Positions 1-16,630 of a stretch of DNA of 64,000 nucleotides are shown piece by piece. Position 1 is the first letter of the stretch. The number at the start of each line of letters is the position of its first letter. Made by a program: the position numbers and the translations under genes. The stretch is from Umezawaea endophytica (GTDB taxonomy: Bacteria; Actinomycetota; Actinomycetes; Mycobacteriales; Pseudonocardiaceae): contig NZ_JANYMP010000010.1 of NCBI RefSeq assembly GCF_025061645.1, forward strand, positions 1-64,000, written 5' to 3'. The notes under the pieces were generated by a model that was not told the DNA's origin, searched no databases, and saw nothing but the letters and a program-made list of their open reading frames with translations.

Positions 1-1
1 G

Positions 2-574
2 GCGCACTGCGAGCAGGGGCTCGGCGTGTGGAGCTGGGCGAGCACCGACACCGAGGGCGACACGGATGTCGTGCTGGCCTGCGCGGGCGACGTGCCGACG
101 CAGGAAACCCTGGCCACTGTGGAAGTCCTGCTCGGTCTCGTGCCCGATCTGCGCGTCCGGGTGGTGAACGTGGTCGACCTGGCCCGGTTGGCGCCCGCCG
201 AGCTGCACCCGCACGGCGTCCCCGACAAGGACTACGAGGAGATCTTCACCGCTACGGCCCCGGTGGTCTTCGCCTACCACGGCTACCCGTGGCTGATCCA
301 CCGCCTGACCTACCGCCGTCCCGGCCACGACCGGATGCACGTGCACGGTTTCCACGAGAACGGCACGACGACCACGCCGTTCGACATGTGCGTGCTCAAC
401 GAGGTCGACCGCTACGCGCTCGCGCTGGCCGCGCTGGAACGGGTGCCGAGGGTCGCGGGCCGGATCGGGCACCTGCGGCAGCACCTGCGGGACCGGCGCG
501 TCGCGCACCACAACCACATCCGCCGCGCCGGCGAGGACCTGCCGGAGGTCCGCGACTGGGTCTGGGGCGGGTGA
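2..574 (+). CDS. xfp: Phosphoketolase, C-terminal part (5' truncated by window edge)
   Basis: Only the last ~190 residues lie in the window. Phosphoketolase is a thiamine-diphosphate enzyme that cleaves xylulose-5-P or fructose-6-P with phosphate, giving acetyl-phosphate. The visible part is the XFP C-terminal domain: VVLACAGDVPT, then HGYPWLIHRLTYRR, then TTTTPFDMCVLNEVDRY are conserved family blocks. The stop (572-574) shares one base with the acetate kinase ATG, so the producer and consumer of acetyl-phosphate are translationally coupled. Its promoter is outside the window. Together they form an ATP-yielding shunt that needs no electron acceptor, fitting the dormancy genes that follow. Confidence 0.93.
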   Translation, partial: AHCEQGLGVWSWASTDTEGDTDVVLACAGDVPTQETLATVEVLLGLVPDLRVRVVNVVDLARLAPAELHPHGVPDKDYEEIFTATAPVVFAYHGYPWLIHRLTYRRPGHDRMHVHGFHENGTTTTPFDMCVLNEVDRYALALAALERVPRVAGRIGHLRQHLRDRRVAHHNHIRRAGEDLPEVRDWVWGG

Positions 575-1665
575 TGCGGACCCTGGTGGTCAACCCCGGT
601 TCGTCCAGCCTGAAGCTGTCCGTCGTGGACGGTGGGGTCCAGGTGGCGTCGAGGACGCTGGACGGCTGGGGCGGCGTCCCGGCCCGGTGGCCGATCCTCG
701 ACGTCCTGGCGGCCTCGGGCCCGGTGGACGCGGTCGGCGTGCGGATCGCGCACGGCGGCGACCGGGACGGTCCGCGCCTGCTGGACGAGGGGGAGCTGCG
801 CGCGCTGGAGGAGTTCGTCCCGCTGGCCCCGCTGCACCAGCCCAGGTCGCTGGCGCTGGCGCGGGTGGTCGTCGAGGTGCTGCCGGACGTCCGGGTGTTC
901 GGGTGCTTCGACACGTCGTTCCACGCCGGGATGCCCGCGCACGCCACGACGTACCCGGTGCCGCGGGAGTGGACCGAGCGGTTCCGGTTGCGCCGCTACG
1001 GTTTCCACGGGCTGTCGTGCGCCTACGCGGTGCGGGCGGCGGCCGGGGCGCTGGGCCGCGACCCGGCCGGGCTGAGCCTGCTCTGCTGCCACGTCGGCTC
1101 CGGTGTGTCGGTGACGGCGGTGCTGGACGGCCGAAGCGTGGACACGTCGATGGGGCTGACGCCGCTGGACGGCGTCGCGATGGCGACCCGCTCGGGCGGC
1201 CTGGACCCCGGTCTCCTGCTGCACGTCCAGCGCACCGGCGGGTTGTCGGCGGGCGAGGTGGAGTCGGCGCTGACCCACCACTCCGGGCTCGCGGGCCTGT
1301 CCGGCACCAGCGGTGACGTGCGGCGGGTGCTGGCGGCCCGCGCGGCGGGCGACGAGCACGCGGACCTGGCCATCCGCGTGTACCTGCACCGGCTGCGCCG
1401 CGAGATCGGCGCCGCCCGCGTGTCGCTGGACCGCCTCGACGCCCTGGTGCTCACCGGAGGGGTCGCCGAGCACGAGCCCGCGTTGGTGGCCGAACTCCTC
1501 GACGGCCTGGCGCACCTGGGGATCGCGGTCGCCCCCGCCGCGCTGGCGGGCACGGGGGACCGGGTGGTCAGCCCGGAGACCGCGCGGACCCGCGTGCTGC
1601 TCGTCGCCGCGGGGGAGGACGTCGAGATCGCCCACCAGGTCGAGCGGGCCGGGTTGGCGGTGTGA
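574..1665 (+). CDS. ackA: Acetate kinase
   Basis: Interconverts acetyl-phosphate + ADP and acetate + ATP in the cytoplasm. Motifs in order: VNPGSSSLKLSV (N-terminal ASKHA phosphate loop), RRYGFHGLS, HVGSGVSVTAV, DTSMGLTPLDG with ATRSGGLDPG, and LTGGVAEHEP near the C-terminus. At 363 residues it is shorter than the usual ~400, and the normal TGGIGEN block reads TGGVAEHE, so it is a divergent actinobacterial form often paired with phosphoketolase. ATG at 574 is chosen because it begins exactly on the phosphoketolase stop and yields the family N-terminus MRTLVVNPG; GTG at 571 is also in frame. Confidence 0.92.
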   Translation: MRTLVVNPGSSSLKLSVVDGGVQVASRTLDGWGGVPARWPILDVLAASGPVDAVGVRIAHGGDRDGPRLLDEGELRALEEFVPLAPLHQPRSLALARVVVEVLPDVRVFGCFDTSFHAGMPAHATTYPVPREWTERFRLRRYGFHGLSCAYAVRAAAGALGRDPAGLSLLCCHVGSGVSVTAVLDGRSVDTSMGLTPLDGVAMATRSGGLDPGLLLHVQRTGGLSAGEVESALTHHSGLAGLSGTSGDVRRVLAARAAGDEHADLAIRVYLHRLRREIGAARVSLDRLDALVLTGGVAEHEPALVAELLDGLAHLGIAVAPAALAGTGDRVVSPETARTRVLLVAAGEDVEIAHQVERAGLAV

Positions 1666-1681
1666 CCCGAGGGAGGCAGCC

Positions 1682-2338
1682 GTGCGCGAACCCACCGTGG
1701 CGTCGGTGATGACGCGGGGCGTCGTCACCGTGGAGCTGCACACCCCCTTCAAGGAGGTGGTGGCGCTGCTGGCGGAGCACGGGATCAGCGCCGTCCCGGT
1801 GCTGGACGGCGGCCGGGTCGCCGGGGTGGTGTCCGAAGTGGACCTGCTGGCCAACCAGGAGTACCGCGGCGGCAGCGCTCCCGTGCCGTCCGCGCACGCG
1901 GACCGGGACCGGTGGCGGAAGGCGACGGGCACCACGGCGAGCCACGTGATGACCAGCCCGGCGATCGTGATCGACCCCGGCGCGCCGCTCGGCGAGGCGA
2001 TGGGGCTCCTCGGCCAGTCGACCGTGCGGCGGCTCTTCGTCGTCGACGGCGACGGCGTGCTGGTCGGCGTCCTGGCCCGCCGGGACCTGCTCAGGACCTA
2101 CCTGCGCGCGGACGGCGACATCCTCGGCGACATCCGGGACCTGGTGCTGCGCGAGGAGTTGTCCCTCGACCCGGACCGGGTGGCGGTCGAGGTCGACGCG
2201 GGGCGCGTGCGGCTCGCGGGGTGGCTGGAGCGGCGGAGCCAGGTCGAGCGGGTGGTCGCGCTGGTGCGGCTGCTGGCCGGTGTGGTCGACGTGCGCTGCG
2301 AGGTCGGCTTCGACGTCGACGACGAGACGCCCCGCTGA
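1682..2338 (+). CDS. CBS-CBS-BON domain protein
   Basis: A 218-residue cytoplasmic protein. Residues ~6-60 and ~82-140 form a CBS pair (VASVMTRGVVTV... and ASHVMTSPAIVI..., each ending in a GV(V/L)...DLL strand-helix), and residues ~145-212 form a BON domain (VEVDAGRVRLAGWLERR). CBS pairs usually sense adenosyl nucleotides; BON may contact membranes or phospholipid. The GTG start follows a GAGGGAGG Shine-Dalgarno, 16 bases after ackA, so it belongs to the same operon. CBS proteins of this type (Hrp1-like) are members of the mycobacterial DosR regulon. The exact ligand is unknown. Confidence 0.85.
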   Translation: MREPTVASVMTRGVVTVELHTPFKEVVALLAEHGISAVPVLDGGRVAGVVSEVDLLANQEYRGGSAPVPSAHADRDRWRKATGTTASHVMTSPAIVIDPGAPLGEAMGLLGQSTVRRLFVVDGDGVLVGVLARRDLLRTYLRADGDILGDIRDLVLREELSLDPDRVAVEVDAGRVRLAGWLERRSQVERVVALVRLLAGVVDVRCEVGFDVDDETPR

Positions 2339-2403
2339 ACGGCGAAGGCCCGGCACACCGGTCGTGGGCGCGGGACTCCACCGTCGGGGGGCGGCGAGGG
2401 ACC

Positions 2404-3330
2404 TCAGCGCGAGGCGTCGACGGGTGTCCGGGGTGCCGGGCCGAGGACCGTCGCGCCGGGACGTTCGACGCGGCCCGCCGTTTCCTGCCGCGGTTCGGGC
2501 ACGTGCGGCCGGTGGACGACGAGGACCGGGCACGGCGCCTGGTGCAGCGCGGTCCTGGTGATCGCCCCGCAGCGGCCGGTCCGGGGCGCCTGCTCGCCCG
2601 CGCCGACCACGAGCAGGTCGCTGTCGGTGCAGCGGGCGACGGCCTCGTGCGGTTGACCGTGCAGCAGGACGACGGTGTGGATCGGCCGCCGGTCGAGCTT
2701 CTCCAGCAGCCGGGCCGCGCGGTCGAGCACGAACTGGTGGTCGGCGGCCAGCGCGTCCCTGTTCATCGGCAGCGGGAGCGCGTGCACCACGCGCAGGGCG
2801 GCGCGGTGGTCGAGCGCCATGGCGGCGGCCCTCACGACCACCAGGTCGTCGTCCTCGCCACCGCTGATCAGCGCCGTGACCCGCCGGTTGTCCCCGCGCA
2901 CCGCGGATGGCCTGCCGCGGACGACGACGGTGTCGCACGTCGCGCGGCGGACCAGCGGCAGCACGTTGCCGCCGAGGGTGAAGGAGCTCGCCGAGTGGCC
3001 CCGGTAGCCGACCACGACCAGGCCGGACGCGCGTCCGGCGGTCTCCAGGTCCCGCACGGGGTCGGGGCCGGACTCGTGCACCCGCACCCGCAGCATGGGG
3101 AGGCTGCTGGTCACGTAGTTCAACCCGCCGTTGCGGGGCACGGTGTCCGGCACGTCGGACATCCGGTCCCACAGCCAGACGTCGAGCACCGCTCCCGTGC
3201 GCCACGCGTGCTCGGCGGCCCACCGCAGCGCCGCCTGGCCCCAGAGCGATCCGTCGTTGCCGACGACCACCGGGAGCGGCGACCGGCCCGTCGCCTCGGA
3301 ACGGCTTGGATGACGCGGCACCTGGTTCAT
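2404..3330 (-). CDS. Tandem universal stress protein
   Basis: A 308-residue protein with two Usp domains, the size and layout of mycobacterial Rv2623-type proteins. Domain 1 (~15-150) opens with PVVVGNDGSLWGQAALRWA and ends with the ATP-binding style motif GYRGHSASSFTLGG; domain 2 (~155-290) is more degenerate (VTALISGGEDDDLVVV... and VVGAGEQ). ATG at 3330 is preferred over an upstream in-frame start because ACGGGAG lies six bases before it. A near-perfect DosR-type box lies ~90 bases upstream (3420-3433). Likely an ATP-binding stress/dormancy protein; its target is unknown. Confidence 0.88.
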   Translation of the reverse strand: MNQVPRHPSRSEATGRSPLPVVVGNDGSLWGQAALRWAAEHAWRTGAVLDVWLWDRMSDVPDTVPRNGGLNYVTSSLPMLRVRVHESGPDPVRDLETAGRASGLVVVGYRGHSASSFTLGGNVLPLVRRATCDTVVVRGRPSAVRGDNRRVTALISGGEDDDLVVVRAAAMALDHRAALRVVHALPLPMNRDALAADHQFVLDRAARLLEKLDRRPIHTVVLLHGQPHEAVARCTDSDLLVVGAGEQAPRTGRCGAITRTALHQAPCPVLVVHRPHVPEPRQETAGRVERPGATVLGPAPRTPVDASR

Positions 3331-3419
3331 GAGCGCTCCCGTGTTGGTCCGACCCCCGACACCCACCACGGTCGCGTGGTCGAGCGCGCGGCGGCAGTGC
3401 ACACGGGACCCCGGCCGGA

Positions 3420-3433
3420 GGGACGAAAGTCCC
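3420..3433 (-). promoter_or_regulatory. DosR/DevR-type box upstream of the tandem Usp gene
   Basis: Read toward the Usp gene the site is GGGACTTTCGTCCC, a perfect 5+5 inverted repeat (GGGAC/GTCCC, four-base centre). It differs at one of 14 positions from the DosR core GGGACTTTAGTCCC known from mycobacteria. It lies ~90 bases before the start codon, a position suitable for activation. The match is seen directly; binding by the regulator encoded at 6355-7011 is inference. Confidence 0.75.
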
Positions 3434-3453
3434 ATGCCACCCGGGATCGGACC

Positions 3454-4464
3454 TCACGCGCCCGAGTCGGCGGAGCACGACTCCAGGACCAGTTCCTCCA
3501 CCGGAACGCGCGGTGTCGGCGGGACGGGGGTGCCGAAACCGACCCGCAGCACCGTTTGCGGGAACAGGGAACCGCCGAGCACCCGGCGCAGGTTCTCCCG
3601 CGCCCCGCGGACCTCGACCACCTGCGACAGGAACGAGGCGGACAGGCCGAGCGTGGTCGCCACCAGCAGGACGCGCTGCAACGCCTGTCCCGCTTGGAGT
3701 TCGGCCAGCGCGCCGTCGTAGAACGAGCAGAGCACGACGACGAACGGGTCCGGCTCGTAGTCCTTGCCCGCCTGCCGGGTCACCGGTTCCCCCGGCGAGA
3801 AGTCGCGCAGGGCCCATTCGTCCTGTGGCGCGGGCGTGGGACCGGCCGAGTCCGACGGCACGCCGCGCCCCCGGTGCGCCCGACTTCCCGTCCAGTCCAC
3901 CAGTTCCGCCCGCACGCCGGGATCCGCGAGTTGTTCGTGGTGCGCCTTGACGAGCAGGTCCCGCAGCCGCGCTTTCTCCTCGCGGGTGCCGACGACGTGC
4001 AGCCACGACCGCTCCAGTTCCGCGGCCCGCACCAGGCGCTGCCGGTGCGCGGCGGGCACCGGGCTGTCGAAGAACGGGTGGCGGTTGGTCCTGCGGTGTT
4101 CCACCGCGGCCAGCAGGGAACGGGACTCCTCGGTCGGCGTGAACCGCCCACCGCGCCGGACGACCGCGAGCGGGCCGCCTGCTCCCCGGCCGGGCAGCAG
4201 CGTGACGAGGGGCTTGATGCCGAGCCCTTGGAGGGCGAGCCGCGTGTTCAGCAGCGCGGCGCCGCAGGACAGCCTCAGCTCACGGGACTCCGGGTCGGTG
4301 GCGAACAGCCGCCTGGCCGGGTCGAAGTGCAGTTCGACCCGGTCCGGGCGCAGCGCGAACCGCCACGGTTGGCTGTTGTGCAGGGAAGGGGCCAGCGAGG
4401 CGGCCTCGAGCACGCCGCTGACGTCGTCCTCGGCCAGACCCAAGGCCGGTACCACCGCGCTCAT
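3454..4464 (-). CDS. Acg-type nitroreductase-fold protein
   Basis: A 336-residue protein of the Acg (Rv2032) family, a two-lobed nitroreductase fold thought to sequester or bind flavin rather than reduce nitro groups. Visible family blocks: EAASLAPSLHNSQPWRF near the N-terminus, RELRLSCGAALLN, HRRTNRHPF, and LLVATTLGLSASFLSQ near the C-terminus. ATG at 4464 is chosen with GAGGTGAG six bases upstream; an adjacent in-frame GTG at 4467 is possible. acg is a classic DosR-regulon member, and a partial DosR-like half site lies ~75 bases upstream. It precedes the Usp gene on the same strand across a 123-base gap. Confidence 0.86.
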   Translation of the reverse strand: MSAVVPALGLAEDDVSGVLEAASLAPSLHNSQPWRFALRPDRVELHFDPARRLFATDPESRELRLSCGAALLNTRLALQGLGIKPLVTLLPGRGAGGPLAVVRRGGRFTPTEESRSLLAAVEHRRTNRHPFFDSPVPAAHRQRLVRAAELERSWLHVVGTREEKARLRDLLVKAHHEQLADPGVRAELVDWTGSRAHRGRGVPSDSAGPTPAPQDEWALRDFSPGEPVTRQAGKDYEPDPFVVVLCSFYDGALAELQAGQALQRVLLVATTLGLSASFLSQVVEVRGARENLRRVLGGSLFPQTVLRVGFGTPVPPTPRVPVEELVLESCSADSGA

Positions 4465-4536
4465 CACATCTCACCTCGTCGAACCGTGATCGCTCCGGAC
4501 TCCTCCCACTGTCGTTCGTCCCGATCGCCGCGCACA

Positions 4537-4550
4537 CCATCGAAAGTCCT
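4537..4550 (-). promoter_or_regulatory. Weak DosR-box half site upstream of the Acg-type gene
   Basis: On the minus strand AGGACTTTCGATGG keeps the GGACTTTCG half shared with the better boxes in this island, but the second half is lost (8 of 14 against the mycobacterial core). It lies in the 193-base divergent gap between the Acg-type gene and the sensor kinase, so it could serve either promoter. A GGGACGTCC palindrome follows at about 4560. Confidence 0.4.
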
Positions 4551-4603
4551 CGGACGGCAGGGACGTCCGCCGCGGGCCGACGCCGACCTGGTTCAGCGGG
4601 TGA

Positions 4604-6352
<1,749 letters not shown>

Positions 6353-6354
6353 GG

Positions 6355-7011
6355 TCAGTCCTCGGTGGTGCCCTGCCCCGGTTTCCGCAGTTGGCTGGCG
6401 AGGATCGCGGCCTGGGTGCGGCGTTGCATGCCCAGCTTCGCGAGCAGGTGCGACACGTAGTTCTTGATGGTCTTCTCGGCCAGGAACATCCGGTCGGCGA
6501 TCTGCCGGTTGGTCAGGCCCTCGCCGATGAGGTCGAGCACCGTGCGCTCCTGCTCGGTCAGCGTCCGCAGCGGGTCGCCGGTGTCGCGCTCGCGGCGGAT
6601 CCGGTTCAGCAGCGCCGACGTCGTCCTCGCGTCGAGCAGCGACTGGCCCCCGCCGACCGTGCGCACCGCGTTCACCAGGTCGCCGCCGAGGATCTGCTTG
6701 AGCACGAAACCCGACGCCCCGGCCATGATCGCGTCGAACAGCGCCTCGTCGTCGGCGAACGACGTCAGCATGAGCACCTTCAGGTCGGGCAGTTGGGAGC
6801 GCAGGTCGCGGCACAGCTCGATCCCGTTGCCGTCCGGCAGCCGGATGTCCAGCACGGCCACGTCGGCGCCGCTGGGCGGGACCCTGGTGAGCGCCTCGGT
6901 CACCGACGAGGCCTCGCCGATGACCTCCAGGTCACCCTCCTCACCGAGCAGTTCCGCCACGCCCCTGCGCACGATCTCGTGGTCGTCCACCAGGAAGATC
7001 CTCGTGGGCAC
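6355..7011 (-). CDS. devR: DosR/DevR-like NarL-family response regulator
   Basis: A 218-residue regulator: receiver domain ([10 protein letters not shown]; acidic pair D9-D10; phospho-acceptor D55 in VAVLDIRLP; switch T/S and K in FVLKQILGG) and a LuxR-type helix-turn-helix ([20 protein letters not shown], then [15 protein letters not shown]). The recognition segment [22 protein letters not shown] is almost that of mycobacterial DosR, consistent with the DosR-like boxes around it. GTG 7011 fits GGAGGTGG eight bases upstream; TTG 7026 is an alternative. It is encoded opposite the kinase, so the two are not co-transcribed. Confidence 0.9.
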
Positions 7012-7158
7012 CCCCACCACCTCCAAGAAGCAAGCCGGAACCCGCCGTCACGCGATCGGGCCGGCGCACGGTACTCCGTTGGTGGAGACGGTGCCGGTCC
7101 CGGCCGCGGTCGAACAGGGTCCAAGGACTCTGCCGGGAACCGTTGCGGCGCCTCGTGG

Positions 7159-7653
7159 TCAGCGGGACTCCCGCGCCGATCCGGGCGTCACCGCTCCCGC
7201 CGCCTCGACCGCCGCGAACGGGATCACCGTGACCGGGCACCGCGCGTGCCGGAGGCAGTGCGCCGCCACCGAGCCGACCACCGCGAGGCCCGTCCTGCGG
7301 TACCCGTGTCCGCCCAGGACGAGCGCGTCGGCGTCGGCCGACAGCTCCGCGAGCACCCTGCCGGGTTCGCCGGTGGGCACGAACTGGTCGACCACGACCC
7401 CCTCGGCCTCCTGGTCGACGGCCTGCACCGCCGTCCGCAGGTGGTGGACGTGCCGCTCGCGGACCGGGTCGGCGCCCGTCGGCCGGGTGATCGGCATCGG
7501 CGTGCTGGACGGCGGTTTGGCGTCGAGCCCGCGCACCGACACGGCCAGCACCGACCGCCCGGTGAGCCTCGCCTGCCGCACCGCCCAGCGCAGGGCCGCC
7601 GTGCTCGCGGGTGATCCGTCGATGCCGACGATGATCCGCTGGGCCGTCTCCAT
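7159..7653 (-). CDS. Universal stress protein, single domain
   Basis: A 164-residue protein with one Usp domain: RIIVGIDGSPASTAALRWAV at the N-terminus, LVLGGHGYRRTGLAVVGSVA as the nucleotide-binding G-2X-G-9X-G(S) motif, and CPVTVIP at the end. The last ~10 residues (AVTPGSARESR) are an unstructured tail. The start is fixed by GAGGAG eight bases before ATG 7653. A DosR-like box at 7714-7727 lies ~60 bases upstream. Probably ATP-binding and induced with the rest of the island. Confidence 0.9.
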   Translation of the reverse strand: METAQRIIVGIDGSPASTAALRWAVRQARLTGRSVLAVSVRGLDAKPPSSTPMPITRPTGADPVRERHVHHLRTAVQAVDQEAEGVVVDQFVPTGEPGRVLAELSADADALVLGGHGYRRTGLAVVGSVAAHCLRHARCPVTVIPFAAVEAAGAVTPGSARESR

Positions 7654-7713
7654 GGTGATCCACTCCTCGTTGGTCGTCCCCCCGATGGTCTTGGGCGCGC
7701 GGCGTCCGGACGA

Positions 7714-7727
7714 GGGGCGAACGACCC
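7714..7727 (-). promoter_or_regulatory. DosR-type box upstream of the single-domain Usp gene
   Basis: Read toward the Usp gene the site is GGGTCGTTCGCCCC, matching 10 of 14 positions of GGGACTTTAGTCCC. It lies about 60 bases before the Usp start in the divergent gap with the 65-residue protein gene. The match is weaker than at 3420-3433. Confidence 0.5.
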
Positions 7728-7801
7728 GATCCGGCCGGGCCCATCGCCGACGGTCCCGTCGCCGACGGTCCCGTCGCGCTCCGCCGGATGCCGCGCCGCA
7801 C

Positions 7802-7836
7802 GGGACTTTCGCCCCTGACGGACGGACTTTGGCCAC
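7802..7836 (+). promoter_or_regulatory. Tandem DosR-type boxes upstream of the 65-residue protein
   Basis: GGGACTTTCGCCCC (7802-7815, 12 of 14 against the mycobacterial core) is followed 21 bases later by CGGACTTTGGCCAC (7823-7836, 10 of 14). The 21-bp phasing equals two helical turns, as expected for cooperative dimers, and DosR boxes commonly occur in pairs. They end 74 bases before the ATG at 7911. Confidence 0.68.
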
Positions 7837-7910
7837 TTCGCCCGGCGGCCCGCGTGGTCGAGGCTGAGGGGGAACTCGTCGACAGCCCCGACCCGAGGAG
7901 GCCGTGCGTC

Positions 7911-8108
7911 ATGGCGACACGCGAGAGCACCGTCGGCGGTCCGGTGGAGCACGACGTCCACCACGTGGTGGTCAAGGACCACGACGGCTACCCGGTCGTC
8001 GAGGTGTCGATGCCGCCCGGCGTGCTCGCCGCGGTGGTGACGCCCCTGGTCGCGGCGGCGGGCGCGGTGGCGGCGCTGGCGGTCGACTGGACCGTCGAGG
8101 TCGACTGA
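7911..8108 (+). CDS. 65-residue conserved-looking hypothetical protein
   Basis: Not assigned to a named family. Polar first half with two His-rich strands (EHDVHHVVVKDHDGYPVVEVSMPPG) followed by a hydrophobic, Ala/Val-rich segment (~38-58, VTPLVAAAGAVAALAVDW) that could be one membrane helix or a packed strand-helix. ATG 7911 has GAGGAGG nine bases upstream; the frame is well biased. It is preceded by tandem DosR-type boxes and followed 35 bases later by the DUF1918 gene, so it is probably the first gene of a hypoxia-induced operon. Function unknown. Confidence 0.75.
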   Translation: MATRESTVGGPVEHDVHHVVVKDHDGYPVVEVSMPPGVLAAVVTPLVAAAGAVAALAVDWTVEVD

Positions 8109-8143
8109 GCGGGCAGGACTTCCGGAGATCCGAGGAGACGGCG

Positions 8144-8404
8144 ATGCGCGCGGAAACAGGTGACTGGCTGCTGGTCGAACAGTCCAGTGTGGACAGGTCT
8201 GCTCGGCGGGGGAGGATCGTCGGCGTGCGCGGGGCCGACGGCGGTCCGCCCTACGTGGTGCACTGGGTCGACAGCGACCACGAGGCGCTGGTGTACCCCG
8301 GACCCGACGCGCACGTGGTCACGGCGGCGGAACTGGCCGAGGCCGACGCCCGCGCCGGGGAACGGGCGGACGCCGGGCGGCGGAGCGCCTTCGGCCACGG
8401 GTGA
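8144..8404 (+). CDS. DUF1918 small protein
   Basis: An 86-residue protein matching DUF1918: MRAETGDWLLVE at the start, then GRIVGVRGADGGPPYVVHW and DHEALVYPGPDAHVV, an SH3-like barrel of unknown function common in actinobacteria and often near stress genes. The final ~25 residues are Ala/Arg-rich and probably flexible. GAGGAG lies six bases before ATG 8144. It sits 35 bases downstream of the 65-residue ORF and is likely co-transcribed with it from the tandem-box promoter. Confidence 0.85.
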   Translation: MRAETGDWLLVEQSSVDRSARRGRIVGVRGADGGPPYVVHWVDSDHEALVYPGPDAHVVTAAELAEADARAGERADAGRRSAFGHG

Positions 8405-8460
8405 CAGCCGTCGTGGGCGGATCCCCGTCGCCGTGCCAGAGCACAGGGCCTCGACCGCCA

Positions 8461-8474
8461 GTGACTTTGTGCCC
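8461..8474 (+). promoter_or_regulatory. DosR-like box upstream of the PPOX-fold gene
   Basis: GTGACTTTGTGCCC matches 10 of 14 positions of the DosR core. It lies ~175 bases before the PPOX-fold start, further than the other sites, with a strong hairpin (8504-8536) in between, so its function is less certain. Confidence 0.4.
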
Positions 8475-8503
8475 TGCTGGGCCGGAATAGGTCGACCGAC
8501 AAT

Positions 8504-8536
8504 GGTCTTCTCCGCGCGCGGGACGCGGGGAAGACC
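8504..8536. terminator. Strong hairpin in the 8405-8650 gap
   Basis: Arms GGTCTTCTCCGCG (8504-8516) and CGCGGGGAAGACC (8524-8536) pair over 13 positions with one G-T wobble and a seven-base loop. No T-run follows. It may be a factor-independent actinobacterial terminator for the DUF1918 operon, or an attenuator/operator in the PPOX leader, since it lies ~115 bases before that start codon. Confidence 0.5.
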
Positions 8537-8650
8537 ACGGGGAGTCGAGTTGACCGAGCGCGAGGCGGACCTGGGGACCGTTGGCGAGGGGGAGGGGGCA
8601 CGTCGAGCGGCGCTCGCCGTGCCGGGAGGCGTGCCACCGGGCGGTGAGCG

Positions 8651-9085
8651 ATGAGCAGTGCGCTGGAGGAGGAGCCGGGCGAACTCCTGGAGCTGCCGGA
8701 GGCGACGTCGTTGCGGCTGCTGGCGGGCGTCCCCTTCGGGCGGGTGGTGTTCTCGCGGGACGCGCTGCCCGCGATCCGGCCGGTCAACCACGTCGTCGAC
8801 CGCGGCTCGATCGTCATCCGCGCCCACCTGGGCGCCGCGGTGCTGTCGTCCGTCGGCATGGTGGTGGCCTACGAGGCCGATTCGATCGACCCCGTGACGC
8901 GCCAGGGGTGGAGCGTGATCGTGGTCGGCGTCGCGAAGCGGGTCGACGACCCCGACGAGGTGGCGCGCCTCGACGAGGTGCTGAAGCCGTGGGTGCGCGG
9001 GACCATGGACCACGTGATCCGGATCGTGCCGGAGATGGTGACCGGGTACGAACTGGTCGTGGACGGGCCGACGGCCGGTGGTTGA
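8651..9085 (+). CDS. PPOX-fold (split-barrel) flavin/F420-type protein
   Basis: A 144-residue pyridoxamine-5'-phosphate-oxidase-like protein. Family features: LRLLAGVPFGRVVFSRDALPAI, then RPVNHVVDRGSIVIRAHLG and WSVIVVGVAKRVDDPDE, the typical split-barrel strands that bind FMN or F420. Short proteins of this kind are frequent in DosR-like gene groups. ATG 8651 is preceded by a weak GGGCGGTGAG. The true cofactor and substrate cannot be read from the sequence. Confidence 0.82.
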   Translation: MSSALEEEPGELLELPEATSLRLLAGVPFGRVVFSRDALPAIRPVNHVVDRGSIVIRAHLGAAVLSSVGMVVAYEADSIDPVTRQGWSVIVVGVAKRVDDPDEVARLDEVLKPWVRGTMDHVIRIVPEMVTGYELVVDGPTAGG

Positions 9086-12188: not shown

Positions 12189-12950
12189 GTGGACGAGCGC
12201 AGGCGCCTGGCCAAGGAGGTCGAACTCGCCGCCACCCCGGACGAGGTGTGGGAGGCGATCTCCACCCCGGAGGGCATGTCGGTCTGGTTCGTGCCGCACG
12301 AGCGGGTGGACGGCGAGGTCGAGGCCGACTTCGGGGGCGGCAACACGCAGGCGGGCCAGGTGCTGGCGTGGGAGCCGGGCGAGCGGGTCGTCTACGGGGC
12401 GCCCGGCCCGGACGGTGAACCGCCGATGACGCTGGAGTTCCTGGTCGAGGGCAGGGGCGACGGCACCACCGTGCTCCGCCTCGTCCAGAGCGGGTTCTTC
12501 GGCGGCGACGACTGGGAGGCCGAGTACGACGGCTTCGGCAAGGGCTGGGACATGTTCCTGCACAACCTGGCCGAGTACTTCCGGCACTTCTCCGGGCGGC
12601 CGGTGGCGAACGTGGTCGCCACCGCCTCCACGACCAGGCCCGGTGCCGAGGTGTGGGCCGACCTGGTCGCGCGGCTCGGCGCGGACCCGGCGCTCGGCGA
12701 CCGGGTGCGCCTCACCCCGGAGGGCCTCGAACCCGTCGAGGGCGTGGTGGACCTGCACATCGGGTCGGTGCTGCTGGGCGTCCGGACCGAGCAGGGCTTC
12801 TACCGGTTCATGGTCGACGACGCGCACCACATGGTGAACACGATCCAGTACTTCTACGGCGTGCAGGTGGATCGGGAGTCCCGTTCCGCCGCCTGGCAGG
12901 CCTGGGTCGACGACCTCGCCGGGGCACCCGGTCACGGGCGGGGGAGGTAG
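12189..12950 (+). CDS. SRPBCC/AHSA1-type START-fold protein
   Basis: A 253-residue protein. Residues ~1-145 are an AHSA1-like SRPBCC domain (VELAATPDEVWEAISTPEGM, VLAWEPGERVVY, LRLVQSGFF, GWDMFLHNLAEYF), which binds hydrophobic ligands. The remaining ~100 residues (EVWADLVARLGADPALGDRV to HHMVNTIQYFYG) look like a second, weakly similar unit. The GTG start follows the VOC stop by five bases. ArsR + AHSA1 + VOC is a recurrent actinobacterial set; its inducer is not known here. The 3' end overlaps the opposite-strand gene by 19 bases. Confidence 0.85.
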   Translation: MDERRRLAKEVELAATPDEVWEAISTPEGMSVWFVPHERVDGEVEADFGGGNTQAGQVLAWEPGERVVYGAPGPDGEPPMTLEFLVEGRGDGTTVLRLVQSGFFGGDDWEAEYDGFGKGWDMFLHNLAEYFRHFSGRPVANVVATASTTRPGAEVWADLVARLGADPALGDRVRLTPEGLEPVEGVVDLHIGSVLLGVRTEQGFYRFMVDDAHHMVNTIQYFYGVQVDRESRSAAWQAWVDDLAGAPGHGRGR

Positions 12951-13627
12951 GCGGCGACCTCGGCGAGCGCGTCGAGCGCCTCGGGGTCGAACGCGCCGGT
13001 GGCGTTCTCCGCCTCGGCGACGGTGAGCGAGGTCCCCTGGACGTCGGAACCGTAGTAGCGGCCGGTGAACGCGATGTCCGCCAGGCCGAGCAGCGCCGAG
13101 CCGAGCGGGCGGACGTCACCGCTGCCGTCGACGTCGATGACCGACTTGAAGTCGCGCACGTCGGCGGCTCGGCGGAACCCGACCCAGGCGACGGACACGA
13201 CCGCGCTGGTGCCCACGTCGTCGCCGACGGCCACGATGATCCGGTCCAGCGAGGCGCACGGGACGCGGGCCAGGAACTCCCGCACCCGGCCGTGCGACGC
13301 GGTCAGGCACTCGACCTGCCGACGCCCCTCCCGGCGTAGTTCCCGCACGCCCATGCGCCGCCACGCGTCGGCGGAATCGCCCTTGCGCGCGGACTTCTGC
13401 CCCTCGGCCTTGCGGACGCGCAGGTCGACGGCCGGGCTCGCCCCGCCGCCCGCACCGCCGCCCCCTCCGCCGGAGCCCATCAGCGCCCCGCCGCCGCCGT
13501 AGCCCACCATCCCGAGCGCCAGGACACCCGCCACCACGACGGTGCCCCCTCCGCCCTTCTTCTTTTTCTTCTTGCCGCTGAGCGGTCGGACCTTGCCGCT
13601 CTTGTCCGTGAAGAATCCTGCGGGCAC
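12932..13627 (-). CDS. Lys/Gly-rich single-pass membrane protein, unknown function
   Basis: A 231-residue protein not assigned to a family. The N-terminus (MPAGFFTDKSGKVRPLSGKK, with six lysines in a row) is strongly basic, followed by a hydrophobic helix ~28-48 (TVVVAGVLALGMVGY) and a Gly-rich linker (~44-66), then a soluble domain ~68-231. By the positive-inside rule the soluble domain would be outside the membrane. Two cysteines (VECLTASH, VPCASLD) could form a disulfide. GTG 13627 has GGGG nine bases upstream. Its last residues overlap the SRPBCC gene on the other strand. Confidence 0.75.
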   Translation of the reverse strand: MPAGFFTDKSGKVRPLSGKKKKKKGGGGTVVVAGVLALGMVGYGGGGALMGSGGGGGGAGGGASPAVDLRVRKAEGQKSARKGDSADAWRRMGVRELRREGRRQVECLTASHGRVREFLARVPCASLDRIIVAVGDDVGTSAVVSVAWVGFRRAADVRDFKSVIDVDGSGDVRPLGSALLGLADIAFTGRYYGSDVQGTSLTVAEAENATGAFDPEALDALAEVAAYLPRP

Positions 13628-13939: not shown

Positions 13940-16630
13940 ATGTCCCCGCACGACTTCAGCCGTCGGCGCCTGTTCACCGCGGCCGGTGGCACGGCCGTCC
14001 TGGCCGCGCTCGGCACCCCCGGTGCGGCAGGCGCTTCCGCCAGTGCGCTGCCGCCCGTTCGAGCGGACATCGGCGCTCGCGCGTTCGCGTTCGGCCTGGA
14101 CCAGGTGCGGCTGGCGCCCGGCCGCTGGCGCGACAACCTGGACCGGACGCTGGCGTACCTGCGCTTCATCGACGTCGACCGGCTGCTGTACGCGTTCCGC
14201 GCCAACCACCGGCTGGACACCCGCGGCGCCCAGCCCTGCGGTGGCTGGGAATCACCCACCTTCGAGTTCCGCACCCACAGCCAGGGGCACTTCCTGTCGG
14301 CGTGGGCGCAGGCGTGGGTCGTCACGGGGGAGAGCGCGTTCCGCGACAAGGCCGCGTACCTGGTCGCGGAACTGGCGAAGTGCCAGGCGAGCGCGGCCGG
14401 GTTCACCGCGGGCTACCTGTCCGGGTTCCCCGAATCCGACTTCGACACCGTGGAAACGGGCACCCGCAAGGGAGTCCCGTACTACTGCGTGCACAAGACG
14501 TTGGCCGGTCTGCTGGACGTGTGGCGGCTGTTGGGCAACACGCAGGCCCGCGACGTGTTGCTGGCGCTCGCCGGGTGGGTGGACTGGCGGACCGGGCGGC
14601 TGACGTACGAGCAGATGCAGACGACCATGCGGATCGAGTTCGGCGGGATGAACGCCGTGCTCACCGACCTGTACCAGCAGACGGGGGACGCCCGCTGGCT
14701 GCGCGTCGCGCAGCGGTTCGACCACGCGGCCGTCATCGACCCGCTGGCCGCGAACCGGGACCAGCTCAGCGGACTGCACGCCAACACGCAGATCCCCAAG
14801 ATCGTCGGCGCCGCGCGGGAGTACAAGGCGACGGGAACCCAGCGGTACCTGGACGTCGCGAAGAACTTCTGGTCGATCGTCACCGGTGCCCACACCTACG
14901 TGATCGGCGGTAACAGCGTCGGAGAGTTCTTCCGGGAACCCGGCGCCATCGCCCGGTTCCTGACCGACGTGACGTGCGAGAGCTGCAACACCTACAACAT
15001 GCTCAAGCTGACGCGGGAGCTGTTCCTGCTCGACCCGACGAGGGTCGACCTCGTCGACTACTACGAGACCGCGCTGCTGAACCAGTTGCTGGCGCAGCAG
15101 AACCCGAACGACGCGCACGGGCACGTCTGCTACTTCACCCCGCTCAACCCCGGCGGGCGCCGCACCTACAGCAACGACTACGACACGTTCACCTGCTGCC
15201 AGGGCACCGGCCTGGAGACCCAGACCAAGCTCGCGGACTCGATCTACTTCTCCGCCGACCGCGCGCTGTACGTGACCCTGTTCATCGCCTCGACGCTGAC
15301 CTGGAGCGCGCTCGGCGTGACGGTCGAGCAGACCACCACGTTCCCCGAGGGCGACACCACCACGCTGCGGGTCACCGGCACGCCGGGCCGGTGGACGATG
15401 AACATCCGCGTCCCGAGCTGGACCAGCGGCGCGACCGTCCAGGTGAACGGGGTCGCGCAGGACATCGCCACGACACCGGGCACGTACGCGGTGCTGGACC
15501 GCACCTGGGCCTCCGGCGACACGGTGGTGGTCCGGCTGCCGATGCGCGTGGTGCTCAGGCCGACCCCGGACGACCCCGGCGTGCAGGCCGTCACCTACGG
15601 CCCCGTCGTGCTCAGCGGCGCCTACGGTGGCACGAGCCTCGCCGGGCTGCCCGTGCTGGCCACCGCGTCGATCACGCGCGGCAGCGGGCTGCGGTTCACC
15701 GCCACCGCCGACGGCGCCCAGGTGTCGCTGATCCCGTTCCACGACAACCACCTCCAGAACTACACCGTCTACTGGAACGCCGACGGGCGCGCCGTCGACA
15801 CGGCGACCTTCAAGCTGCTCAACGCGGGCAGCGGCCTGGTGCTGGGCGTGCGGGACATGTCCACCGCCGACGGGGCCGACGCGCTCCAGTGGGCGGACAC
15901 CGGCACCCCCGACCACGGCTGGGAACTCGTCGTCTCCGGTTCCGCGCTCAAGCTCCGCAACGGCAACAGCCGCAAGGTGCTCGGCGTGCGGGACATGTCC
16001 ACTTCGGACGGTGCGCGGGTCGTCCAGTGGAGCGACACGGGCACTGCGGACCACCTGTGGACGCCGGTCGACAACGGTGACGGGACGCACGGGATCCGCA
16101 ACGGCCACAGCGGCAAGCTGCTGGGCATCCTCGACGGGTCCACGGCCCAGGGAGCCGTGGCCGTCCAGGACTCCGACAACGGCAGCGCCGACAACCGCTG
16201 GCGCCTGGTCCCCGTCGCGGCGCGGAGGGTGCGGAACGTCCACAGCGGTCTGGTGCTCGGCGTGACCGGCATGTCCACCGCGGACGGGGCGCTCGTCGTC
16301 CAGTGGGGGGACAACGGCACCGCGGACCACCTGTGGACGGCCGAGGTGAGGTCCGGCGGGCACCTGGTGCTGCGCAACCAGCACAGCGGGAAGGTGCTCG
16401 GCGTCGAGAACGCCGGGACGGCCAACGGCGCGCGGATCGCGCAGCGGGCCGACGACGGCACCGGCGGCACCCTGTGGCGGCTCCGGTACGGCGGCAGCGG
16501 CGGCTTCCGCGTGCAGAACCCCGCGAGCGGCCGGGTGCTGGGCGTGACGTCGATGTCCACCGCTGAGGGCGCGCAGGTCGTGCTGTGGGACGACAACGGC
16601 ACCGCTGACCACCTGTGGACGTTCCGCTAG
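13940..16630 (+). CDS. Secreted GH127 (beta-L-arabinofuranosidase-type) enzyme with C-terminal ricin-type repeats
   Basis: An 896-residue Tat substrate: SRRRLFTAAGG then a hydrophobic stretch ending AGASA. Residues ~45-600 are a GH127 barrel plus beta-sandwich; C346, E347 and C349 (CESCNTYN) and the C419-C420 pair (DTFTCCQGTG) match the zinc-thiolate site in which a cysteine is the nucleophile. Residues ~610-896 hold six ~45-residue units (SGxVLGVxxMSTADGAxVVQW..DNGTADHLW), two beta-trefoil lectin domains. GGAG precedes ATG 13940 by six bases. Expected to attack L-arabinofuranosyl residues in plant polymers. Adjacent AraC gene may regulate it. Confidence 0.87.
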   Translation: MSPHDFSRRRLFTAAGGTAVLAALGTPGAAGASASALPPVRADIGARAFAFGLDQVRLAPGRWRDNLDRTLAYLRFIDVDRLLYAFRANHRLDTRGAQPCGGWESPTFEFRTHSQGHFLSAWAQAWVVTGESAFRDKAAYLVAELAKCQASAAGFTAGYLSGFPESDFDTVETGTRKGVPYYCVHKTLAGLLDVWRLLGNTQARDVLLALAGWVDWRTGRLTYEQMQTTMRIEFGGMNAVLTDLYQQTGDARWLRVAQRFDHAAVIDPLAANRDQLSGLHANTQIPKIVGAAREYKATGTQRYLDVAKNFWSIVTGAHTYVIGGNSVGEFFREPGAIARFLTDVTCESCNTYNMLKLTRELFLLDPTRVDLVDYYETALLNQLLAQQNPNDAHGHVCYFTPLNPGGRRTYSNDYDTFTCCQGTGLETQTKLADSIYFSADRALYVTLFIASTLTWSALGVTVEQTTTFPEGDTTTLRVTGTPGRWTMNIRVPSWTSGATVQVNGVAQDIATTPGTYAVLDRTWASGDTVVVRLPMRVVLRPTPDDPGVQAVTYGPVVLSGAYGGTSLAGLPVLATASITRGSGLRFTATADGAQVSLIPFHDNHLQNYTVYWNADGRAVDTATFKLLNAGSGLVLGVRDMSTADGADALQWADTGTPDHGWELVVSGSALKLRNGNSRKVLGVRDMSTSDGARVVQWSDTGTADHLWTPVDNGDGTHGIRNGHSGKLLGILDGSTAQGAVAVQDSDNGSADNRWRLVPVAARRVRNVHSGLVLGVTGMSTADGALVVQWGDNGTADHLWTAEVRSGGHLVLRNQHSGKVLGVENAGTANGARIAQRADDGTGGTLWRLRYGGSGGFRVQNPASGRVLGVTSMSTAEGAQVVLWDDNGTADHLWTFR

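Follow-up and report, generated by a model that had tools for sequence, protein, structure and literature searches.

The 64,000-nucleotide stretch of Umezawaea endophytica DNA analysed here (the window; contig NZ_JANYMP010000010.1, called C10 below) opens with an island of stress and energy genes (positions 1-9085) which, judged by its proteins and DNA motifs, is a DosR/DevR-type locus. It is very probably one of two paralogous DosS-DosR islands of this genome, in which the response regulator DosR would switch on stress genes together with a phosphoketolase-acetate kinase operon when oxygen is lacking. By analogy with the mycobacterial and Streptomyces systems, the heme-GAF kinase DosS would sense the loss of O2 (or NO/CO) and phosphorylate DosR, which would bind palindromic boxes of the form GGGAC-TTTC-GNCCC and activate there. 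The induced stress set would comprise two universal stress proteins (Usp), the DUF4342 and DUF1918/PPOX proteins and an Acg-type flavoprotein, and the same boxes would switch on the phosphoketolase-acetate kinase operon. As known enzymology suggests, phosphoketolase would split sugar phosphates to give acetyl phosphate, from which acetate kinase would make ATP and acetate without oxygen. What the DNA itself contributes to this reading are the sensor and regulator families, their key residues, and the boxes that recur upstream of Usp, Acg, PPOX, dosR and phosphoketolase genes. The genes of the island are the following.

2-574, plus strand: phosphoketolase (XFP), C-terminal part (Pfam XFP_C 1.2e-80), the 5' part being lost at the contig end.
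574-1665, plus strand: acetate kinase (Pfam Acetate_kinase 4.1e-89; TIGR00016 289.8 bits, slightly below the 293.4 cut-off).
1682-2338, plus strand: CBS-BON domain protein (Pfam CBS 3.7e-27, BON 7.7e-08).
2404-3330, minus strand: Usp (Pfam Usp 5.1e-17; alignment with the copy on contig C36).
3454-4467, minus strand: Acg-family FMN-binding nitroreductase-like protein (NCBIfam Rv3131_FMN_oxido 301.6 bits, cut-off 199; PDB 2ymv 1.2e-24).
4697-6352, plus strand: DosS/DevS-type heme-GAF histidine kinase (PDB GAF-A matches; longest open reading frame from 4619).
6355-7026, minus strand: DosR/DevR-type response regulator (PDB 3c3w, DevR, 286 bits).
7159-7653, minus strand: second Usp (Pfam Usp 2.6e-23; top PDB match 'hypothetical protein TB31.7').
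7911-8108, plus strand: DUF4342 protein (Pfam 1.3e-06).
8144-8404, plus strand: DUF1918 protein, a relative of Mycobacterium tuberculosis Rv2302 (Pfam DUF1918 9.3e-26; PDB 2a7y 8.7e-20).
8651-9085, plus strand: pyridoxamine-5'-phosphate-oxidase-like (PPOX-type) flavoprotein (Pfam Pyridox_ox_2 2.9e-23).

An earlier sequence-only reading of this DNA had assigned linked genes of the island to families of the mycobacterial DosR regulon, and the Pfam, NCBIfam and PDB matches bear these families out. They add the DUF1918 gene, unnamed in that reading, whose single PDB match is M. tuberculosis Rv2302 (2a7y). The start of the first Usp was set at 3330, because the longer open reading frame, to 3435, would overlap a box at 3420.

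The regulator matches M. tuberculosis DevR (PDB 3c3w) over residues 9-220 with 286 bits, the next match, VraR, reaching 142. When aligned to DevR, it keeps the equivalents of D54, K179, K182 and N183, T205 being replaced by Ser; we take Asp54 to be the phospho-acceptor and Lys179, Lys182 and Asn183 to be DNA contacts. The kinase exhibits tandem GAF, HisKA_3 and HATPase domains (Pfam), and its GAF-A domain returns from the PDB 2vzw first (5.4e-57), labelled 'probable histidine kinase response regulator', followed by four DevS sequences (1.3e-51 to 1.7e-50). The His of its HPPM motif aligns with the His149 position of the DevS chains and is therefore kept; this GAF-A residue is presumably the heme ligand. 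The dosS and dosR genes lie tail to tail with their ends at most 3 bases apart, an order also found in a Saccharothrix carnea locus (L097). The DosR-like character first proposed for the island is borne out, at the level of sequence, by its closest solved relative, the heme histidine, the DNA-contact residues, the box and the gene content.

The boxes were scored with a symmetric matrix built from 74 consensus sites in 80 dosS loci of other named genomes, none of the sites coming from this genome; records very near Umezawaea endophytica may be missing from the set, and many of its loci are close kin (Lentzea). The pattern GGGHCNWWNGNCCC is the core of the DosR consensus printed in PMC2947987. 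It occurs in the 80 loci at 74 intergenic and 3 coding sites, against 0-9 intergenic matches for each of six similarly built control patterns. Four sites in the island score at least 13, whereas 500 Markov shuffles of it average 0.034 such sites and reach 2 at most, and the rest of the window from 12 to 64 kb returns nothing above 9.1 and hence no site of at least 13. The four sites are listed below.

3420-3433, minus strand: box GGGACTTTCGTCCC, exact core, matrix score 17.7, ~90 bp before the Usp start set at 3330.
7117-7130: candidate box, matrix score 13.7, upstream of dosR.
7714-7727, minus strand: box with 2 mismatches to the core, matrix score 14.5, upstream of the Usp at 7653.
7802-7815, plus strand: box GGGACTTTCGCCCC, exact core, matrix score 16.2, between the Usp (minus strand) and DUF4342 (plus strand) genes.

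The boxes at 3420, 7714 and 7802 stand upstream of Usp genes, and within the window the core GGGACTTTCGNCCC is exact only at 3420 and 7802. Five boxes with a common core had been proposed from the letters alone. The three just named hold, whereas those at 7823 (3 mismatches, matrix 2.3) and 8461 (3 mismatches, matrix 5.2) are rejected, and the core shared by all five falls with them; the candidate at 7117 was absent from that list. A match with 3 mismatches is not distinctive, because chance yields such matches freely: the window has 23 matches to the core at up to 3 mismatches, where shuffled sequence leads one to expect 40. Two further sites, at 2458 (11.3) and 8999 (8.7), fall within the Usp and PPOX genes, respectively, and were discounted as promoter boxes. 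The box between Acg and Usp has the same sequence and place in both islands (3420 and C36:5552), in a surrounding spacer that has diverged. In the 11.02 Mb genome as a whole, the exact core occurs five times (3420 and 7802 in the window, C36:5552, C53:6223 and C53:13729), and all five sites are on three contigs bearing genes of the DosR-regulon kind.

In the related loci, the boxes follow particular gene families. With a box defined as a score of 8 or more within 300 nt upstream, the 80 loci have one at 7/11 PPOX, 27/47 Acg, 35/63 DosR and 36/87 Usp genes, at 4/11 XFP, 23/74 DosS, 5/30 CBS and 3/20 P-type ATPase genes, and at 87 of 830 unlabelled genes. None is found upstream of AckA (0/8), ADH (0/6), PPDK (0/5), the acyl-CoA-ligase fusion (0/10), PPK2 (0/2), PFL (0/1) or a NarL-type control regulator (0/2). 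It is the contrast between families that counts here, and not the overall box rate, because the matrix sites come from the same 80 loci. The loci of one genome, G009 (L226, L227), are probably counted in both genome collections. The sequence-only reading was to be given up if related genomes showed no enrichment of boxes before these genes; the rates are favourable to it.

Several observations on the boxes weigh against the proposed regulation. Genome-wide, the core with at most 2 mismatches is in little excess over its reversed pattern (118+117 versus 107+93), as is the loose consensus (29+32 versus 25+24, or 61 versus 49 rows). The 7117 site is not conserved in the C36 paralogue, where its counterpart scores -2.5, and the Acg-dosS spacer of the window holds no box above 4.8 in the matrix scan. 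The barely enriched loose consensus would suit a generic NarL/VraR-type two-component system that stands by chance among stress genes, the palindromes being noise of GC-rich DNA, and so would the 148 matches that the regulator finds in its own genome at E up to 0.001. We consider this extremely improbable: DevR scores far above VraR, the paralogues beyond the C36 copy (the best match, 92% identical) are only 61% (C22) and 54% (C12) identical, the consensus sites of the 80 loci are overwhelmingly intergenic, and the five exact cores are confined to three contigs with such genes.

The inclusion of the phosphoketolase in the predicted DosR program rests on boxes at both copies of the gene and on their recurrence in related genomes. 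Two phosphoketolase 5' halves are located at the starts of contigs C1 and C53, and both are preceded at ~120 bp by a strong box (C1:1371, score 22.1; C53:1373, score 21.4). The C53 box, AGGGACCTTCGGCCCT, is one base off AGGGACCTTCGGCCCC, one of the Streptomyces OsdR sites printed in PMC5069765. Among 60 genomes (own included), DosS GAF-A is present in 38 and this phosphoketolase in 35. A first sample comprised 30 scored phosphoketolase loci of 42 listed matches, a box being a score of 8 or more within 400 nt upstream and 'near' meaning on the same contig within about 45 kb of dosS, the own genome being taken as linked despite its contig break. The near set was drawn up with part of the scores already known. 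A box precedes 9/13 of the phosphoketolase genes near dosS and 2/17 of the others (Fisher p = 0.002), and none of the four in dosS-free genomes; one locus at a contig end (L207) has an upstream score of 4.5 and counts as without box. The difference persists when the threshold is raised to 13 (6/13 versus 1/17, p = 0.025), when G002 is taken as not near (p = 0.009), when the own genome is omitted (p = 0.0045), or when G027, whose boxless phosphoketolase is ~25 kb from dosS, is taken off the near set (9/12 versus 2/18, p = 0.0012). A second sample under the same rules, made up of 26 fresh loci (the fetched best matches; 132 of 200 family genomes had a match), gives 10/12 near versus 0/6 not near (p = 0.0015). 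Control stretches inside the phosphoketolase genes contain a box in 0/26 cases, and eight loci with an unlisted dosS place, two of them with a box, stand outside the test. Two genomes, G131 and G168, are uncertain as not near owing to unlisted dosS copies; leaving both out gives 10/12 versus 0/4 (p = 0.008).

Other observations qualify this association. The sampled genomes are related, so that the tests overstate independence; counted by genus, the second sample gives 6/7 versus 0/4 (p = 0.015). In the named loci, a box lies directly upstream of phosphoketolase in just 4/15, all Lentzea (15 loci scored of the 16 with that phosphoketolase part in the fetched stretch). In two Amycolatopsis loci (L119, L124) and one of Pseudonocardia (L142), phosphoketolase is a later gene of an apparent operon whose first gene, a Usp, CBS or unlabelled gene, has a weak box of 8.1-9.7, and in Streptoalloteichus (L134) the box (8.3) upstream of CBS-phosphoketolase is closer to dosS. 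The missing boxes at AckA are expected only if AckA is transcribed from an upstream promoter. Within the assembly, the 5' half belonging to the window phosphoketolase could be that of either C1 or C53. The small share of named loci with a direct box would fit a regulon in which DosR controls the stress genes only, phosphoketolase-acetate kinase being a neighbour under its own sugar- or phosphate-responsive control. The dosS-free genomes that keep a boxless phosphoketolase point the same way, indicating that the enzyme is also used outside the program. This narrower regulon nevertheless appears unlikely, since both own copies have upstream boxes and linked phosphoketolase genes carry them far more often than the others in both samples. 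The role in a hypoxia program that the sequence-only reading had suggested for phosphoketolase-acetate kinase, going solely by the genes being there, is therefore supported, as a prediction from box positions. No title or abstract opening in the literature searched links phosphoketolase with DosR, DevR or hypoxia.

The second island would explain the abrupt start of the first. C36:1-20000 mirrors the window: it also begins inside phosphoketolase and has acetate kinase, Acg, DosS, DosR, CBS and PPOX genes, and its matching blocks are 70-87% identical to the window in DNA. The middle of phosphoketolase (profile positions 411-604) has no match anywhere in the assembly. This is consistent with a contig break at a duplicated gene, the window beginning within phosphoketolase where a near-identical stretch was collapsed. 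In one clade (support 97/98), the regulator of the window groups with its C36 counterpart and with one of the copies in G002, of the same genus, and the duplication therefore appears younger than the split from Lentzea. Multiple copies are not peculiar to this genome, as 17 of the 38 dosS-bearing genomes (own included) have two or more. The listed contamination of 4.78% and the break of C36 and C10 at the same gene could be read as signs that the second island (C36/C53) is foreign DNA of a related strain within the assembly and no paralogue. This is very improbable, and contamination of C36 is judged unlikely, because 6 kb of C36 outside the island have no full-length second copy (partial matches reach ~950 bases) and because the single-contig G002 is similar: it lists a contamination of 4, has four dosS GAF-A matches, and three of its dosS copies are 88-89% identical to the own one in GAF-A. 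As a separate observation, the Usp copy on C36 (L037:5001-5487) beside the conserved box appears broken, with two frames and a stop in direct translation.

G002 and G018, both single-contig relatives, carry dispersed dosS-dosR copies (L223/L224 and L229/L230, respectively). Third positions of the G002 dosS pair are 98-100% alike over the first 160 codons, the GAF-A part, and 62-88% elsewhere, with a significant third-position run of 168 (null maximum 60). In G018, the runs of dosS (132, null maximum 129) and dosR (126, null maximum 69) are also significant, and blocks of 95-100% alternate with blocks of 57-88% in both genes. This mosaic identity suggests the pattern left by ectopic gene conversion. 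The own C10/C36 dosS pair gives no significant run (p = 0.14), the dosR pair gives p = 0.006, a weak result as orthologue controls reached p = 0.025, and the run test in seven Lentzea pairs returns nothing clear (p = 0.017-0.75). The G002 pair also shares one exact 855-base match outside dosS-dosR.

Boxes precede additional genes on C53 and C36, which are likely further members in this genome. On C53, they lie upstream of glyceraldehyde-3-phosphate dehydrogenase (6223, score 16.5), of a Usp that precedes a GNAT/acyl-CoA-ligase-type fusion and a P-type ATPase (13729, 20.6; 13770, 15.4), and of an unlabelled gene (17027, 17.3), and on C36 upstream of a CBS-BON gene (16767, 16.0). Pyruvate phosphate dikinase, on C53, is unsupported as a target, the 2-mismatch site 84 bp upstream being absent from the matrix sites of at least 6. 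A polyphosphate kinase 2 adjoins a CBS protein on the same box-rich contig (L038:4228-5501) and may be an ATP-supply gene. A pyruvate formate-lyase with its radical-SAM activase is encoded at C36:18.7-21.7 kb (L037:18683-19408; L235:2405-4651); dosS is ~12 kb away, and a dehydrogenase-like gene is oriented divergently to it. Pyruvate formate-lyase and its activase are oxygen-sensitive, and Pseudonocardiaceae are usually regarded as aerobic. Strong matches are present in 9/60 genomes (own included), all nine carrying dosS, and in 4/9 the gene and a dosS copy are at most 50 kb apart; one further match, a weak one, occurs in a dosS-free genome. An upstream site of 8 or more is found in 3/9 (8.9, 13.7 and 16.6). 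As a direct DosR target in the own genome, pyruvate formate-lyase is unsupported, no site ahead of the C36 gene scoring above 1.5, and on these scores it is a neighbour of the island and no demonstrated target. Elsewhere in the window, 12935-13627 (minus strand) encodes a protein with a lysine run and then glycines close to its start, without a Pfam match, and 13940-16630 (plus strand) a GH127 beta-L-arabinofuranosidase-like enzyme with several ricin-type lectin repeats.

The closest known system is DosR-DosS/DosT (DevR-DevS) of M. tuberculosis, which provides the closest solved regulator and sensor and shares the heme histidine, the DNA-contact residues and the box, and whose regulon likewise includes Usp, Acg, Rv2302-type and PPOX-type genes. 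Mycobacterial dosR and dosS form one operon, whereas the two genes are tail to tail here. The centre of the mycobacterial box consensus ends in A, in contrast with the TTTC centre of the present box. Unlike in the M. tuberculosis regulon, phosphoketolase carries boxes here and the island is duplicated. Outside mycobacteria, to which the motifs of PMC3388012 belong, a DosR-type regulon is that of OsdK-OsdR in Streptomyces coelicolor (PMC5069765). OsdR uses the same box type, its SCO0167 and SCO0216 sites containing GGGACCTTCGGCCC, although its published consensus has the centre CGATCG, and its predicted targets include Usp, nitroreductase, PPOX and alcohol dehydrogenase genes; neither the term phosphoketolase nor the term acetate kinase appears in the main text of that paper (PMC5069765). 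In Rhodococcus equi, putative DosR boxes and an unexpected phosphoketolase have both been reported, but the passages concerned, the supplementary box table aside, do not link them (PMC2947987). The box-controlled phosphoketolase and the duplicated islands therefore look new, the DosR/OsdR-type system itself being known.

A wider generalization may be drawn tentatively, and we would put it at somewhat less than even: in Pseudonocardiaceae, DosR may directly drive an anaerobic route to energy, through phosphoketolase-acetate kinase and in certain genomes also through pyruvate formate-lyase, from an island that is duplicated, with gene conversion keeping the sensor domains alike in some species. 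To our knowledge, how actinomycetes regarded as aerobes produce ATP without oxygen is an open question. The recurrent box before phosphoketolase, tied to the dosS neighbourhood, would offer for one large family a specific and easily tested answer, namely an acetate-forming fermentation turned on by oxygen loss. The duplication of the islands, together with the apparent conversion tracts that cover the heme-sensor domain in two relatives, would in addition provide a natural experiment on whether sensor-regulator pairs stay matched or diverge. If the proposal is true, 'dormancy' in these soil bacteria would include active acetate-forming fermentation, beyond shutdown alone.

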